The translations under genes were made by a program, and so were the position numbers. This document shows positions 11,569-29,485 of a DNA stretch of 64,000 nt, in pieces. The first letter of the stretch is position 1. Each line of letters opens with the position of its first letter. The notes under the pieces were generated by a model, which was not told the DNA's origin, made no database searches, and worked only from the letters and a program-made list of their open reading frames with translations. Origin of the DNA: Chloroflexota bacterium (GTDB taxonomy: Bacteria > Chloroflexota > Anaerolineae > Anaerolineales > Anaerolineaceae); contig JAAYUC010000016.1 of NCBI GenBank assembly GCA_012517865.1, positions 1-64,000 of the forward strand. Reading direction: 5' to 3'.

Positions 11569-11591
11569 TCTTTCTGGTCTATTTATACGCG

Positions 11592-11629
11592 AGGCGCGGT
11601 TCGACTTGTGAACCGCGCCTTTGGTTTTC
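11592..11629 (+). terminator. Hairpin terminator
   Basis: AGGCGCGGTTC-gacttgt-GAACCGCGCCT 11-bp perfect stem followed by TTGGTTTT. Confidence 0.75.
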
Positions 11630-11734
11630 CGGAAAAAAAGCTCATCCCAGGCGCATTCTCAGGCTTCCCCCAACCGCGCCGTAAAACCTCATAAACCTGT
11701 TTTTCGGCTTTCCATCTCAGTTTATAATGGCGGC

Positions 11735-14635
11735 ATGGCAAGCGTAGTTTTTGGAAGGAAATTCCACTGGCAGCTGCAGGAGCAAATTGGCAAAGGTGAT
11801 GCCGGCGAAGTCCTGCGCGTGCAAACCGAACTTGGCCGGCAGCGCGGCCTGATGAAGCGTCCGGTTCAGAACATCTCGGGCGGCACGATTTTGCGGCAGG
11901 CCGTGCAGATTGAAAACGAAGGCAAAGTGCTTGCGGCTCTCAATGGACTGGACGCCCGCCGAAATAATCTTACCGTGCATACCCCCCTGCTCCTGGACCA
12001 AAGCCCGGAGGGCACATCCAGAACCGCGGCTCTCTTCATCATCAGCGAGGAAGTGCGCGGCATTGCCATATCAAATTTATTAAAGAACCTGCTCCAAAAG
12101 AATGCCTCCTTCTCGCAAACACTTGTGCTGAAGGTGCTATCCAGTGTGTTCACCTTGCTATCCCGCGTACACGCCCTGGGTATTGCCTGGAATGATGTCA
12201 AAATGGAGCATATTTTTTGGGACGAATCAACGAACACGCTTTCGTTCATTGACTGGGGCAACGGCTTGTTTTTTGAAACCAATGAAGCGCTTCACCCGCA
12301 GCACCCCGTAAATCTGGATTACCAGCAGTTCATCAATGAAGGCAGCCTGCTGCTGAATCAAATAGCTCCGGAACTTATCCCGGAAATTGATTGGCCCAGG
12401 GACGCCTCCGGTCTCACGCCAAAAGCGCTGCTCCAGCTGCAGCACCGCGTGGAATACATGGAAACGCACCTCTCGATGCGCGTCAAGGAGTATCAGCTTG
12501 CTTTCGACAGTAGCTCCCGACAAATTGATTCCTTAACTCAGGTGCAAGAAATCCTCGAATTGAAGCAGGCGCTGGCCAAGTTAGGCGTTCAGGTGCAGAC
12601 CGAGACAGCCATCCTATCTATCCGCCGTTATGCTGACCGTCTCGCGCGTGAAAAAGCTTATAAAGAGCTTCGTGAGCTCATTGAGCTGCTGCGGGTTTAC
12701 GTGCCAGAAGAAGTCAACGAGAGCTGGCAGTTGGTGCAATATTTGCTCAGCCTGGAAGACGCTTACGACCGGCCGGCTTTCACCAATGTTCTCACCAGAA
12801 CGATTACCGACGATTTACCGGGAGCTATCTGGGAATTGGAGGGGGCGCGCGCAATTTCCAAAAACATCGCGCGGCTGAACAGCATCCAGCTTGCCATGCG
12901 TCAGGCTTTTGGCGTCCCGGAAGCCCTGAAAACAACCCTTTTGGAGCAGTTAATCAGCTGGCGCGATGAAGGCCTTACCCGCCTCCTGCATGCGCGGGAA
13001 GAGCTACAGTCTGAAAATGACGCGCTCAGAGCCCTTAAGGATTTGGCCGCCGTCCTGGAAGAGCTCATCTCAAAATGGGGCCAGTTACAGCCGGGGGAAA
13101 TGCTCGGCGATAAACTGCTGAAACTGAGGGATTTGCTGCGCTCGCCTGGAGCGCATCTCACCAGTATTCCGGCAGCGCTGCCGCAGGCTTTGAACCTGGA
13201 ACTGGCGAAAACGCGGGAAATCCTGACTTTGTGGACGGAAGGTGAACTTGAAAAATGCCAGGACGCCCTGGTGAAGTTTTTCCTGCTTGAGCCGACCATG
13301 CCGTTTCTCAGAGATATTCATGCCGGTATCGCCGCGCTTCAAACCTGGATGAACGAAATTTCCCGCGGACCGCAGCCGGGACAAAGCCTAAATGCGTTCG
13401 GACGCGAACTGACAGACCGTATGCCGGATGTGGCAGCCTCCCTGAGCCAACCGGCGTGGCTTGCCAGCCTTGTGCAGTGTCAGAAAGCCCTGGCGGCAGC
13501 TGCCGATTTGGAGACCCTGCGTCTGGTATCCACCAGCAGCCATTGGCCCATCCCATGGCTGGAATATGGTGAATATGTTATCGAATACCGGCCATCCTCC
13601 GCGATGTCGGGCAGGTTAGGCGCCGCTCAAAAGGACGCGATATCACGCTTTCATCAGTCGCTTCGGGAAGGAGAAGACCTCTCCACTGCCTTAAGCAGCC
13701 TCAAGACGCACATGCCTGAGTATTACGGCCCTTACCGGCTGCTGGGCCAGGCATTTGACACTCTTTTTGGTATGCTGCCAACCCAAACCCAACCGGTGGA
13801 ACCAGCTGTTTTCCCGCCGACCGACCAACAAAACGTCATTCAGGCGCTGAATGTCCTTGAGTACCTGAAAGCCTGGAAGGACGCGCAAACCAACGCGGTC
13901 GCGTCACGTGAAGCGCCTCTGCCGGACAACTATTCCCATTGGCTGTTGGTCAGGTCCGCTCTCGAAGCGCAAAAAAACTGGAAAACAACCCTCCAACCGC
14001 ACCTGACCATGATTAAACAAATGCGTTGGGACGCGCTGGCAGAATCCCTGCAGGCCAACGCACTGCCCGCGCATCTCGAATCCTGCGGGCAGGCATTGGT
14101 AAAACTGGTTGGATATTGGCGCCGGCTGCAAGAAAACGGCGTTTTTCTCGATAATGTGCGCGAAATGGTCGCGCTGGCTGAGCAAGCACAGCATGATTTC
14201 TTCACATTCTGGCAGGAACATGAACATTCAGTAAACCGCCCCCTGCGATGGCTCATCCAGATGAACCAGTCCGCGTTCAGCGGCATCAATCAGTCGCTTC
14301 AACAGCTGACCCGCCACCTTCAAACCCTGGAGCGCACATTACTCGCCCTGGCAAAGCCGGGCACAGCGTGCACAAGGCTTGCCTGGAACAGCGCGGGGGA
14401 CATGATGTTCGCGCTCGGACAAATTCACACCCTGCTGGAACCTCCTTCCAGAAAACAATCGAAGGTGCGCCTTTGGCAGGAGCAGTACAATCAGGTGCTG
14501 AAACAAACGGAATGGAAGCACGCAGCCAGCCTGCTGGACGCGCTTGACGTCGCTCACCCTCTGGCGGGCTGGTTTCAGGAGCTGGCATCCAAAGATATTG
14601 ATATCTTCAACGAAGACCCCAAACAAAAATGGTAG
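11735..14635 (+). CDS. Large protein with divergent N-terminal protein kinase fold and long helical C-terminal region
   Basis: Gly loop IGKGDAGEVLRV, Lys in GLMKRP, Glu in IENEGKVL, HALGIAWNDVKMEHIFWDE, IDWGNG; start set at MASVVFGRK. Confidence 0.7.
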   Translation: MASVVFGRKFHWQLQEQIGKGDAGEVLRVQTELGRQRGLMKRPVQNISGGTILRQAVQIENEGKVLAALNGLDARRNNLTVHTPLLLDQSPEGTSRTAALFIISEEVRGIAISNLLKNLLQKNASFSQTLVLKVLSSVFTLLSRVHALGIAWNDVKMEHIFWDESTNTLSFIDWGNGLFFETNEALHPQHPVNLDYQQFINEGSLLLNQIAPELIPEIDWPRDASGLTPKALLQLQHRVEYMETHLSMRVKEYQLAFDSSSRQIDSLTQVQEILELKQALAKLGVQVQTETAILSIRRYADRLAREKAYKELRELIELLRVYVPEEVNESWQLVQYLLSLEDAYDRPAFTNVLTRTITDDLPGAIWELEGARAISKNIARLNSIQLAMRQAFGVPEALKTTLLEQLISWRDEGLTRLLHAREELQSENDALRALKDLAAVLEELISKWGQLQPGEMLGDKLLKLRDLLRSPGAHLTSIPAALPQALNLELAKTREILTLWTEGELEKCQDALVKFFLLEPTMPFLRDIHAGIAALQTWMNEISRGPQPGQSLNAFGRELTDRMPDVAASLSQPAWLASLVQCQKALAAAADLETLRLVSTSSHWPIPWLEYGEYVIEYRPSSAMSGRLGAAQKDAISRFHQSLREGEDLSTALSSLKTHMPEYYGPYRLLGQAFDTLFGMLPTQTQPVEPAVFPPTDQQNVIQALNVLEYLKAWKDAQTNAVASREAPLPDNYSHWLLVRSALEAQKNWKTTLQPHLTMIKQMRWDALAESLQANALPAHLESCGQALVKLVGYWRRLQENGVFLDNVREMVALAEQAQHDFFTFWQEHEHSVNRPLRWLIQMNQSAFSGINQSLQQLTRHLQTLERTLLALAKPGTACTRLAWNSAGDMMFALGQIHTLLEPPSRKQSKVRLWQEQYNQVLKQTEWKHAASLLDALDVAHPLAGWFQELASKDIDIFNEDPKQKW

Positions 14636-14659
14636 AATTGCCCGAATTAAGGGTCAAAC

Positions 14660-15670
14660 ATGATTGAGAAAAAATTAAGCATACAAAGCGGGCTCTATCT
14701 CGCTGAACCTTTGGACACCTGGCTGACTGCCGGAAACCAGGATTTCGCCGTACCCGAAGCCGCGGGTTCGAGCGCCAGAGTTTTTTTATTGAAGGACGAA
14801 ACAGGCAGCAGCGCGTACAAGCGCGACCCCGCATTTAAAGTGATGCGGCACGATAAAATCTCGTACGCGAAGCCCCTTTTCCTCGAGGAATTCCGCATCC
14901 TTGCCAATCTGCAAAACATCCAGGGTCTTACTCCCATGCTGCAGGCTGGTTTTCTTAAAACTGACGCAGCCAGTATGTGGCCTTCTGAATTGGCGCCGTT
15001 ATCCAAAGATGCCGAGCAAAAAGCGAGCGCGGCGCATGTCAGCGGCACGCTATCGCTTTTTGCGCCGGATGAAACGGACACATTGCTGGAGGAGATGGAC
15101 GAAAGGCTGGCCGACGGCTGGCTTCCTTTTCTCATCCTCGAGCGGCGCTGGGAAGACAATCTTTATCTGCTCTGCGATGCCGGTTATACACGCGGTAACT
15201 TTGTAAAGAACCTGACGATGAAACAGGTGCTGGATATTTCCATCCAGATTGTCGATATGCTCGACAAAGCACACCAACGCGGAGCGACTTACCTCGACCA
15301 TAAATTGCTGCATTATTACTGGAACGAGTACCGCCAGAAAGTCATCATGCTGGACTGGAACATTGGCCACTGGCAGCCGCAAAACATTCAGCCCGAAGTG
15401 CTGCAGTTTGATTTGGTGCAGTTCAGTTCCCGGGCAATGCATCACATTTTTACAGGCCGGCAAGCCCCCGGCTCGGTCGCGGTTGGTCCCAACCGCCCGG
15501 AAGATATCAACAACTCCCCCAGGCACTTCAAAGCGTCTTATTCCTATGACGTGCAGAACCGTCTGAACCAGGAGGAGATGCGCTTTTTGGAAAAAGCCCT
15601 GGATGGGAACTTCCTCAGCGCCGCGGAGATGCGGGACCACCTGCAGTACCTTGCCAGCAAACGGCTATAA
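14660..15670 (+). CDS. Divergent protein kinase-fold protein
   Basis: AFKVMR Lys, FLEEFRIL Glu, HQRGATYLDHKLLHYYWNEYRQKVIMLDWNIG catalytic-loop/DFG-like region; 24 nt after preceding CDS. Confidence 0.65.
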   Translation: MIEKKLSIQSGLYLAEPLDTWLTAGNQDFAVPEAAGSSARVFLLKDETGSSAYKRDPAFKVMRHDKISYAKPLFLEEFRILANLQNIQGLTPMLQAGFLKTDAASMWPSELAPLSKDAEQKASAAHVSGTLSLFAPDETDTLLEEMDERLADGWLPFLILERRWEDNLYLLCDAGYTRGNFVKNLTMKQVLDISIQIVDMLDKAHQRGATYLDHKLLHYYWNEYRQKVIMLDWNIGHWQPQNIQPEVLQFDLVQFSSRAMHHIFTGRQAPGSVAVGPNRPEDINNSPRHFKASYSYDVQNRLNQEEMRFLEKALDGNFLSAAEMRDHLQYLASKRL

Positions 15671-15711
15671 TCACCATACACCGTGAAATAAAGACTTGAA
15701 AGGAGCCATCA

Positions 15712-17535
15712 ATGATTCTGGACCTCATTGAACAGGCCAAAACCCTTCTAAAGAAATCTAATCCGTCTGATGACGAGCTTTTGCAGGTAGAAAACGCGCT
15801 TTCGACCTATCTGGAAGCCCTGGCCACACACCGCATTACCGATCAGGTGGACCTGGACGACGTTGATGAAGCCAACCGCCTTCTGCGCGAAATTCGTCGG
15901 GAACGCGGACGGAGAATTGCCAGCGCGGCGCAGCCCCCTCAGCAGGAGGCCCCCGCGGAACCATCAAGACCCGCGCCAGCTCAACCGTCAATTTCAAAAC
16001 CGCCGGTCAGCAAGCTTGATTTGCAGGGCGATTCTGGGATTGACCCGCTGCGGAAATTTTTCCAGTCCAGCCACGACCCCGAAGCCGAACGGCTGATGGA
16101 CGAGGCCGAAGAGCTTTTTTACAAAGGCAATTACCAGGCAGCCATCCCGCTTTATGAGAAGGTCATGCAGATGGAGCCCGGTTGGTCCCGCGCGGAGGAG
16201 CATCACTCCGAAGCGGAGGAATTTTTGCGATCGGGCAACATACCTTCCGTGGCGCTGCCTCCCGAGGCAGGCAAAGCGTATGGCAAAGCCCAGAGCGCGG
16301 CGCGCGTCTTCCGTTATCAGGTGGCGCTGAATTACCTTGAAGAAGCCTTTGAACACCTGCGGGATGCCGGCATCAAACGCTGGCGCGAAGGCGAGGAACT
16401 GCGCCACGACCTGGAAAATCAGATGCAGGCCTACGATGTTTACAAAGAAGGCCTGAATCTGCTTTCTCAGGGTGAATTGGTGCAGGCGCTTGGGAAAATT
16501 CAAACCGCTGCCAGCGCGGTGGCTATTCCGGAATACCTGGATAAAGCCGCAGAGGTAAAAGCTGACATCTCGCTGCTCGAAGAAGTGAGCGATATCGTCA
16601 GTCTGAGCGGGAAAATTCCACCGGCCAAACTGGCGGAGGCCAAAAGCAAACTGGAACGCCTGCGCATGAAGTACGGCAGCATTTCCCAAATCAGCCGGCT
16701 GCAAAACCGCCTGGATTTGCTCATCCCCGCGACAATTCAGTCGCTGCTGGACAATACTCAGCGCTTACAGAAGGACGCGGCTGAGGCGCCGACGCTTGCC
16801 AGCGCTCTCCAAAAAATTGCCGGCGCGCGGGAAAATCTGGACCTTCTGCGCCAGTTGGACGCCTACGATTCTCAGAGCCTGCTTCTGGAAAACGAAATCA
16901 GCAGTCTCGAAACGGAAATTGAGGCGCATCAAGATGCCATCAATCGGGCCTTGGAAGCCCAAAAAACCGGCAGCCGCTTCTTCGCGCTGGATGCTTTCCT
17001 CATCAGTCGCGGAGTCCGCAAGCGCTTCCCCAACGACCCCCAGGTCATCAAGCTTAAACGCGGGCTCTCGCTCACCTATATGGTTGCTGTATCAGGTGCA
17101 TTATTGGCGCTTGTTATGCTGGGCCTGCTAATTAGTGTGGCTACGCGCAGTATCAGCAGCGCCATTCAAGCCCGCAACCTGGCTCGCACTCCCACCGCGA
17201 CCTTCACCCCGACCATTACACTGACCCCGACCATCACCCCAACCCCGACGAAAACCCTGACCCCCACACCTGATTATTCACCTACCCCAACAAAAACGGC
17301 GACCCCGACACCCGTGGTGTACGTTGAAACCATCCGTCAGGTGTATGCCCGCAATGATTGTTATGAAGGTTATATTGCCACCGGACGAATCCCCCAGGGC
17401 ACGCAGCTTACGCTGCTGCCAATGCCCGAAAGGCGCTTTGACAATTTCAACCGGGAATGTCTGCTGGTGGAATTCCGCGGAAATGGGTTCTCCATCATTG
17501 GTTATGTGCTGCTGGTGGATGTCATCGTAAAATAG
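15712..17535 (+). CDS. TPR/helical protein with single TM, T/P-rich extracellular stalk and C-terminal SH3-like domain
   Basis: TPR-like AEELFYKGNYQAAIPLYEKVMQMEPGW; TM LTYMVAVSGALLALVMLGLLISV; stalk TPTATFTPTITLTPT...; C-terminal YARNDCYEGYIATGRIPQGTQLTLL...; SD AAAGGAG. Confidence 0.75.
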   Translation: MILDLIEQAKTLLKKSNPSDDELLQVENALSTYLEALATHRITDQVDLDDVDEANRLLREIRRERGRRIASAAQPPQQEAPAEPSRPAPAQPSISKPPVSKLDLQGDSGIDPLRKFFQSSHDPEAERLMDEAEELFYKGNYQAAIPLYEKVMQMEPGWSRAEEHHSEAEEFLRSGNIPSVALPPEAGKAYGKAQSAARVFRYQVALNYLEEAFEHLRDAGIKRWREGEELRHDLENQMQAYDVYKEGLNLLSQGELVQALGKIQTAASAVAIPEYLDKAAEVKADISLLEEVSDIVSLSGKIPPAKLAEAKSKLERLRMKYGSISQISRLQNRLDLLIPATIQSLLDNTQRLQKDAAEAPTLASALQKIAGARENLDLLRQLDAYDSQSLLLENEISSLETEIEAHQDAINRALEAQKTGSRFFALDAFLISRGVRKRFPNDPQVIKLKRGLSLTYMVAVSGALLALVMLGLLISVATRSISSAIQARNLARTPTATFTPTITLTPTITPTPTKTLTPTPDYSPTPTKTATPTPVVYVETIRQVYARNDCYEGYIATGRIPQGTQLTLLPMPERRFDNFNRECLLVEFRGNGFSIIGYVLLVDVIVK

Positions 17536-17556: not shown

Positions 17557-17591
17557 AACCCGGTATGACCCAGCCGCATGCCGGGTTTTTT
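17557..17591 (+). terminator. Rho-independent terminator
   Basis: AACCCGGTAT-gacccagccgc-ATGCCGGGTT stem followed by T6. Confidence 0.88.
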
Positions 17592-27718: not shown

Positions 27719-27740
27719 AGTCGCTCAGGCGGCTTTTTTT
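27719..27740 (+). terminator. Rho-independent terminator of rpmB
   Basis: AGTCGC-tcag-GCGGCT stem followed by T-run. Confidence 0.75.
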
Positions 27741-28402
27741 CATTTAACCAGAGCCTTTCGCAAACTGGCAATGCCCGCGCTGATGCCGCCGGGGTGTCCA
27801 AAGACCGCTGTCCCCGCGACAAAATCTCTTGCGCCGGCTTCATAGACCGCGGCAATTGTTTCCGCGTCAATCCCGCCGTCCACCTGGATGACCGCATCTG
27901 AACCGATTTCCTGAAGCAGCTCGCGTGTACGGCGCACTTTATCCACAGCTGAAGGAATAAATTTTTGACCGCCAAAACCAGGGTTGACCGACATAATCAG
28001 CACCAGGTCAAACATTCCGGAAAGATAACGCAGGCCGTCCACCGGTGTGGCGGGATTGAAGGTAATCCCCGGCGCCGCGCCAAGGTCGCGGATGCGCTGT
28101 AAGGTGCGGTGGATATGCGGGCAGGTCTCATGATGCACCGTGATGGCATCCGCTCCCGCCTCCACAAATGCTTCCAGGTGCTTTTCAGGTTCAACAATCA
28201 TCAGATGCACGTCCAGGGGCAGAGATGTGACCTTTTTACACGCCCTGACAATGACCGGGCCGAAGCTGATATTCGGGACGAAGCGTCCATCCATGACATC
28301 AATATGAATTTTGTCCGCGCCGGCGCTTTCGCACTCGCGTAAATCATGGATGAGGTTTCCCAGGTTGGCGGAGAGAATGGAGGGGGAAATTGTGGCGCGC
28401 AT
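27740..28402 (-). CDS. rpe: Ribulose-phosphate 3-epimerase
   Basis: ISPSILSANLGNL, HIDVMDGRFVPNISFGP, MSVNPGFGGQKFIP. Confidence 0.96.
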   Translation of the reverse strand: MRATISPSILSANLGNLIHDLRECESAGADKIHIDVMDGRFVPNISFGPVIVRACKKVTSLPLDVHLMIVEPEKHLEAFVEAGADAITVHHETCPHIHRTLQRIRDLGAAPGITFNPATPVDGLRYLSGMFDLVLIMSVNPGFGGQKFIPSAVDKVRRTRELLQEIGSDAVIQVDGGIDAETIAAVYEAGARDFVAGTAVFGHPGGISAGIASLRKALVK

Positions 28403-28408
28403 AAAGCC

Positions 28409-29485
28409 TCACGGTCTCAAGGTAAGATACACATACAGCCAGAAAGGAATCAGGCCGAACATGGCGGCGGCAGCAAGCAGCCAGAGCATCAGCGTTCCCC
28501 AATCCGGGCTTTTTTTCTCCGGCGCGCGCTCGTCAGCGCCATCATCCGCCGAAAGCGGGAGTTCGTTAATCGGGGTGGGAACAGGCTCCGGAACAGGCAG
28601 GGTTGTGACCGGCTTGGGAGCGGGCTGCGGAGCCGCCGGTCGCGCTTGCGCCGGCCCGCTTTTGTAAGATTGCAGACCCGCCAAAAGCCTTCCCAACTGG
28701 TCCGCGGTGCGATAGCGCGCGGAGGGCTCCTTGGAAAGCACTTTCAGGATGATAGCTTCCAGGGGTTCAGGGATATCTGGATTAAGCACGCGCGGCGGCA
28801 CCGGACGTCCTTCGCGGTGCAAACGCGCCAGTTCTGCCGCGTCGGGGGAGTTGAAAGGCAGCTGTCCGGTCAGCATTTCGTACAGGATAACGCCCAGCGA
28901 ATACACATCTGAAGCGGGAGAAGGCGGCAAACCAGAGGCCTGCTCCGGTGAAAAATAAAGGGGAGAGCCCCACACCACGTCGCTGCGTTCCTCCGGAGAA
29001 ATGGTAGCCAGCGCCCTGGCAATGCCAAAATCAGTCACCTTCAGGCGCCCATCCGGACTGACCAGCATATTGTGGGGTTTGATATCGCAGTGAACCAGCC
29101 CCGCCCGGTGCGCGTACCCCACACCCTGACAGGCTTGCGACATCAAATCCAGCGCTTCCTGGATTTCAAAACGGCCCTTTTCGCGGATGCGGGTTTTAAG
29201 GTCTGTGCCGGGAACAAATTCCATCACAATGAAAAGATGCCGCTGGTCCAGACCAAAATCGTGCACGGTGACAATGTTCGGATGGGAAAGGTTAGCCGCG
29301 GCTTTGGCTTCCTGTCGAAAACGTTCCCGAAAGGCGGCATCTACCGAAAAATCTTCCCGCAGCACCTTCACCGCGACAAAGCGTTCCAGCATCAGGTCCT
29401 TGGCCTTGTAAACAAGCGCCATCCCCCCTGTCCCAAGGGATTCAATTAATTGGTATCGGTCGTTCAGAATTCCGGGAGGTGTCAT
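28409..29485 (-). CDS. Ser/Thr protein kinase with one C-terminal TM (no PASTA domain visible)
   Basis: Canonical LGTGGMALVYKA, HCDIKPHNML, DFG; C-terminal TM WGTLMLWLLAAAAMFGLIPFW. Confidence 0.93.
   Translation of the reverse strand: MTPPGILNDRYQLIESLGTGGMALVYKAKDLMLERFVAVKVLREDFSVDAAFRERFRQEAKAAANLSHPNIVTVHDFGLDQRHLFIVMEFVPGTDLKTRIREKGRFEIQEALDLMSQACQGVGYAHRAGLVHCDIKPHNMLVSPDGRLKVTDFGIARALATISPEERSDVVWGSPLYFSPEQASGLPPSPASDVYSLGVILYEMLTGQLPFNSPDAAELARLHREGRPVPPRVLNPDIPEPLEAIILKVLSKEPSARYRTADQLGRLLAGLQSYKSGPAQARPAAPQPAPKPVTTLPVPEPVPTPINELPLSADDGADERAPEKKSPDWGTLMLWLLAAAAMFGLIPFWLYVYLTLRP

Follow-up and report, generated by a model that had tools for sequence, protein, structure and literature searches.

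Why would a bacterium keep two kinase-like proteins with altered active sites beside a membrane protein predicted to reach outside the cell? The locus that raises this question lies in a 64,000-nucleotide stretch of DNA (the window), part of a 1.9 Mb genome whose nearest named relatives are Anaerolineaceae MAGs, with UBA6073 at 87% for the second gene. An earlier note on this DNA had proposed that the three genes encode a signalling complex coupling an envelope sensor to atypical kinases or pseudokinases. That proposal is supported as the best reading by the co-conservation of the genes, by natural fusions of the two kinases and by phosphatase genes beside distant relatives. We consider it probable, with moderate confidence, that the three genes constitute one envelope-coupled, PknB-like phosphosignalling module of Anaerolineae, in which gene 1 would be regulatory and gene 2 is the predicted active kinase.

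Locus organization and transcription

The three genes run in the same direction on the plus strand and are separated by gaps of 24 and 41 nt: gene 1 (K1, 11735-14635, 966 aa) has an N-terminal kinase domain and a long helical C-terminus, gene 2 (K2, 14660-15670, 336 aa) is a stand-alone kinase domain, and gene 3 (G3, 15712-17535, 607 aa) combines a TPR region, a transmembrane helix, a stalk and a beta ectodomain. Layout, coordinates, frames, gaps and motifs agree with the earlier description.

Does the unit have its own promoter? A TATAAT -10 box (11723-11728, plus strand) lies 6 nt before the ATG of K1, and within the window's genus-level clade TATAAT-N6-ATG is kept in 20/20 sequences amid variable flanks. 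The conserved spacing marks the ATG at 11735 as the predicted start codon and suggests a leaderless transcript beginning at K1, which points to a unit transcribed from its own promoter. The sister genus has a Shine-Dalgarno leader at this position instead, a switch between leaderless and leadered transcripts. The perfect 11-bp hairpin terminator reported just upstream (11592-11620) was right as to the hairpin, which our scan extends to 13 pairs (11591-11621, plus strand, at the end of the preceding gene), but as a terminator it is weak, since the tail TGGTTTTCCG is a poor T-run. The terminator after G3, a hairpin with a T6 run (17557-17591, plus strand), is there as described; its 9-nt loop exceeds the limits of the hairpin scan, and it was identified by reading the sequence.

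A membrane protein with a small exported domain

The G3 model (mean pLDDT 82.9) consists of helical repeats, a long helix (residues 443-490), a disordered stalk and a beta domain. The cytoplasmic helical region (15712-17031, plus strand) is of TPR type: TPR_2 profile matches occur in 23/31 family members, and its best fold matches are TPR proteins, with weak E-values. The only strongly hydrophobic segment, at about residues 458-476 (17083-17139), falls within the long helix and is the predicted membrane span. A Thr/Pro-rich stalk follows (residues 491-535, 17182-17316, pLDDT mostly <55), and then the exported beta domain (residues 537-606, 17320-17529), which is modelled confidently and contains two cysteines, C550 and C583, invariant among near relatives.

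The TPR region, single membrane helix, stalk and beta ectodomain proposed earlier thus all stand; the SH3 identity of the ectodomain stands less well. The bacterial SH3 profile SH3_3 matches 4 of the 31 family members (best 2.2e-7, one of them a distant relative) and does not match the window's own G3 (P0003), so that "SH3-like" is a fair name, with membership not proven. Ectodomain profiles built from near and far relatives match each other weakly, which suggests that the sensed ligand may differ between them.

Two related kinase domains with a shared, altered active site

Both kinase-like domains are predicted to adopt the two-lobed protein-kinase fold of Hanks-type kinases. The fold was modelled with AlphaFold2 on a fused K1-K2 homologue from Anaerolinea thermolimosa (998 aa, 14 sequences, mean pLDDT 86.4), which the window's K1 and K2 match over both kinase domains; the model places a kinase domain, beta strands first and helices after, on either side of an all-helical middle that links the two. 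PknB ranks first among solved structures in a Foldseek search with this model (E 6e-8, TM 0.74 by target length) and is also the best PDB match of both family profiles (E 1.5e-16 for K1, 1.8e-10 for K2), and the K1 and K2 profiles match one another at 99.5% probability. The possibility that one of the genes would show no kinase fold in structural models has therefore not materialized.

In K1 the Gly-rich loop GKGDAGEV (residues 19-26, 11789-11812, plus strand) is followed by the beta3 Lys41 of LMKRP (11855-11857), which pairs with alphaC Glu62 (11918-11920); then come the catalytic loop WNDVKMEHIFW (D154, K156, H159, W162; 12188-12220), in which D, H and W are invariant, and the metal site DWGN (D173-N176; 12251-12262), with the next conserved Asp, that of alphaF, 22 residues on. 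K41, E62, D154, H159 and D173 are invariant in the alignment of 18 relatives. K2 has Lys60 in AFKVMR (14837-14839, plus strand) with alphaC Glu77 (14888-14890), the catalytic loop YLDHKLLHYYW (D213, K215, H218; 15290-15322) and the metal site DWN (D232-N234; 15353-15361), with alphaF Asp251 19 residues on; K60, E77, D213, K215, H218 and D232 are all invariant among 17 relatives. The four key residues expected of a Hanks-type kinase, from beta3 Lys and alphaC Glu to the catalytic and metal Asp, are thus all retained in both families (18 and 17 rows).

What has changed is the rest of the site. The Mg-binding Asn of the canonical HRDxKxxN is absent from all aligned K1 and K2 relatives, every one of which carries a His in its place (H159, H218) and a Trp three residues later, and DFG has become DWG in K1 and DWN in K2. 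These observations confirm the retained Lys and Glu positions and the motif changes noted earlier, and such invariance across 18 K1 and 17 K2 relatives indicates that the changes are not chance. The DxKxxH signature described as shared needs one correction: its His is universal, but the catalytic-loop Lys of K1 (K156) is not, since distant K1 relatives read D-V-D-A-K-H, with the Lys displaced and an Asp where it stood. To these changes we would add the loss of the activation segment. The distance between the metal Asp and the alphaF Asp is mostly 21-23 residues in K1 relatives and 19-21 in K2 relatives, against 41, counted from the sequence, in the window's ordinary kinase (28409-29485); the activation loop and APE region are thus missing, and neither DFG nor a full activation segment to APE is present in K1 or K2. 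The ordinary kinase, of the canonical Ser/Thr type, has a hydrophobic segment at its C-terminus; its gene adjoins one for ribulose-phosphate 3-epimerase (27740-29485, minus strand), and the pair recalls the prkC-rpe neighbourhood of Firmicutes.

The C-terminal region of K1 (12467-14632, plus strand), described earlier as resembling no recognised family, is helical and indeed belongs to no named family; it matches the inter-kinase linker of the fused homologues to residue ~611. Distant K1 proteins are 1400-1500 aa long and carry a membrane helix, a stalk and an outer domain of their own. In five of them (L123, L125, L129, L200, L212) the C-terminal outer domain after the helix and stalk looks beta-type by eye, and a search for a Pfam match to it returned none.

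Genomic neighbours

What surrounds the unit? Among 21 distant loci with a stand-alone K2, 13 have a PP2C phosphatase gene transcribed divergently from K2 (four Pfam-checked); in two of them a class A penicillin-binding protein is encoded past the PP2C, and a transglycosylase protein adjoins one further stand-alone K2. A PknB/PstP/penicillin-binding-protein arrangement is known in Actinobacteria, and the K2 neighbourhood echoes it. Genes for PP2C or PBP do not adjoin the unit in the lineage of the window itself, whose genome has its single PP2C gene on another contig (C39).

The immediate neighbours of the unit differ between genera. In one family (f60; L119, L126, L127) the unit is divergent from what by eye appear to be microcompartment shell genes with deoxyribose-phosphate aldolase and RpiB. 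Type VII secretion was considered here and rejected: neighbours of ~100 aa, found in this family only, first looked like WXG100 proteins and were then read as microcompartment shell proteins. Anti-phage defence was likewise set aside, the PADLOC matches of both kinases being solely to PD-T4-6 models, which match kinase domains generally.

Are the kinases active, and on what?

Could both kinase-like proteins be pseudokinases that carry out no phosphotransfer and, like EssB/YukC or mycobacterial MviN, act on the membrane protein as scaffolds or as switches gated by ATP? The Asn-to-His and DFG-to-DW changes, the lost activation segment and the displaced Lys of distant K1 would all fit, and in EssB/YukC a pseudokinase whose activation loop is reduced serves as a scaffold (PMC12599244). 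Against this reading, neither family varies at any of the four key positions (beta3 Lys, alphaC Glu and the catalytic and metal Asp), and the PP2C neighbour suggests real phosphorylation. The hallmark of pseudokinases such as EssB, MviN, ActPs, DLHK and CP1, namely lost ATP-binding or catalytic residues, was not seen at these four positions in K1 or K2, and their retention argues against gene 2 in particular being a dead pseudokinase; of the two proteins, that of gene 1 is more open to doubt. We regard the pseudokinase reading as unlikely.

A different target is a less probable alternative still: the kinases might act on a sugar or small envelope precursor, as WaaP or Kdo kinases do, with G3 positioning them at envelope assembly. 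E. coli WaaP, which reads HRDCYICHF, has this His too, and its stretch from metal Asp to alphaF Asp is just as short; K1 scores 21.0 bits against Pfam Kdo/WaaP, just under the 21.3 cut-off, and the aminoglycoside-kinase-type APH family matches 7/18 K1 members. Pkinase, however, matches 18/18 K1 members with the best E-value of all families. The window's K1 itself, at 26-30 bits, falls short of the Pkinase cut-off of 31.7, and the fused homologue (36.8) and a distant K1 (34.7) exceed it. In K2, Pkinase is the sole family found (10/17 members; the window's K2 alone gives no Pkinase match), and none of the members matches Kdo. PknB as the nearest solved structure for both domains and the PP2C neighbour also point toward protein substrates, and no recurrent glycan gene was seen adjoining the unit. 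We therefore hold a sugar or precursor substrate to be improbable.

The module reading, with K2 as a protein kinase, has points against it as well. With no activation segment or P+1 loop, the usual mode of binding protein substrates is lacking, and the combination of His and short segment also occurs in WaaP, a sugar kinase. Moreover, the catalytic-loop Lys of K1 is lost in distant relatives, neither a PP2C nor a PBP gene sits beside the unit in the window's lineage, and the ectodomains of near and far G3 proteins resemble each other weakly.

Inheritance as a unit

Are the three genes linked by function or merely by position? A survey of 397 genomes of the class gives K1 and G3 identical distributions, each being present in the same 45; K2 is found in all but one of these (44, the exception being G291). 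In an order-level sample of 121 genomes all three are found in the same 13 (13/13 concordant), a count that leaves aside stalk-only G3 matches and weak matches in two genomes (G003, G072). Because ordinary kinases also pass E 1e-12, K1 was called by a gap in score (>=174 bits versus <=82), and because the full G3 protein is swamped by Thr/Pro stalks, its survey was redone with the cytoplasmic part; K2 matches in two further genomes (G229, G367) were judged to be other kinases. The chance of such co-occurrence is ~1e-58, a figure that ignores descent and is not to be taken literally. In a phylum-wide sample there was one weak match outside the class and no others.

Linkage alone does not account for this pattern. 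In one family (f34) the genes are dispersed yet all kept, at 2.39, 0.59 and 0.52 Mb on the single contig of one genome (G429), and the neighbours of the unlinked K1 and G3 show nothing conserved that bears on function. Within three other families (f1, f50, f64) presence of the unit is patchy. The named collection contains 53 nearer loci. In 30 of them K1, K2 and G3 come in that order, two (L173, L179) having the look of frameshifted fusions; in 13 intact loci a single K1-K2 protein precedes G3, and most of the remainder end at a contig edge. In the tree, split genes of the window's type form one clade (98), and a single clade of fused genes is not firmly supported (69). The three genes thus co-occur far beyond what linkage would give, and the earlier concern that they might not be co-conserved has not been borne out; inherited together even when far apart, they very probably represent one undescribed envelope-signalling system. 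That they are mere neighbours with separate jobs, as their dispersal in f34 might suggest, is very improbable given their joint retention there, the identical 45-genome sets, the patchiness within families and the repeated fusion or tight linkage, to which the genome without K2 is the sole exception seen.

A few loci deserve mention in their own right. In Brevefilum sp. C14-21 (L163, 5382-9578, minus strand) a transposase and a GH38 mannosidase gene are inserted between K1 and K2, both of which stay open frames. Two records titled Pleurocapsa minor (L196) and Bacteroidetes bacterium (L204) contain K2 genes that fall among Chloroflexota in the tree; these are probably mislabelled or misbinned MAGs.

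A proposed mechanism

How might the module work? G3 would serve as membrane sensor and anchor: the Thr/Pro stalk would hold its small beta domain outside, probably within the cell wall, and the TPR region would keep the kinases at the membrane. K1 and K2, diverged Hanks-type kinases related to one another and to PknB, would work as a pair, and the natural K1-K2 fusions and PP2C neighbours lend support to such a complex. K1, on its long helical arm, would probably be the regulatory partner and K2 probably the active kinase; we infer this division of roles from the displaced catalytic-loop Lys of distant K1. K2 would then phosphorylate proteins in response to a cell-wall signal and a PP2C phosphatase would reset them.

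A bolder proposal, which we offer tentatively and hold to be rather doubtful, is that K1 and K2 make up a bacterial protein-kinase class of their own, marked by a His at the metal site and by the missing activation segment. The two would form an obligate pair, one regulatory and one catalytic, in a logic comparable to that of the tandem kinase domains of JAKs; the pair would sense the cell wall by way of G3 and control peptidoglycan synthesis in Anaerolineae. In a major bacterial group that is mostly uncultured, the locus offers a coherent signalling unit of three proteins, as yet unnamed, and a first handle on envelope sensing in Anaerolineae. It also allows a test of whether a kinase can function when His replaces the Mg-binding Asn and the activation segment is gone, and a cultured host exists for the fused form, Anaerolinea thermolimosa IMO-1.

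Comparison with known systems

We found no published description of the K1-K2-G3 unit in the searched literature, which mostly did not extend to subscription papers. Chloroflexota and Anaerolineae go unmentioned in a 2025 review of bacterial pseudokinase families, and no motif set in its Table 1 equals that of K1 and K2 (PMC12599244). EssB/YukC and MviN resemble K1 and K2 in having a kinase fold with altered motifs that serves an envelope complex (PMC12599244), but the canonical motifs are gone from EssB and MviN (Table 1, PMC12599244), and with them catalytic residues that are invariant in K1 and K2. WaaP, the LPS heptose kinase of the Kdo/WaaP family, shares HRDxxxxH and the short segment, and by its sequence the Asn-to-His exchange is not unprecedented; unlike WaaP, K1 and K2 are closer to Pkinase than to Kdo and are paired with a TPR membrane protein.

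By profile and fold, both kinase domains come nearest to the PASTA kinases PknB, PrkC and StkP, which function with a PP2C phosphatase (PstP/PrpC). Like them, the unit spans the membrane and has an outside domain, and PP2C genes, at a few loci together with a class A PBP, lie near distant K2. The differences are substantial: sensor and kinases are separate proteins here, there are two kinases, the ectodomain is SH3-like and not PASTA, and the active sites have His for Asn, DW(G/N) for DFG and no activation segment. In organization, the nearest working analogy is PknG-GlnX-GlnH of Actinobacteria, an operon that couples its soluble kinase both to a membrane protein and to an exported sensor, with a TPR region proposed to connect the kinase with the membrane protein (PMC8546545). 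There the TPR lies in the kinase, whereas here it lies in the membrane protein, and the present unit has two kinases and no binding lipoprotein.
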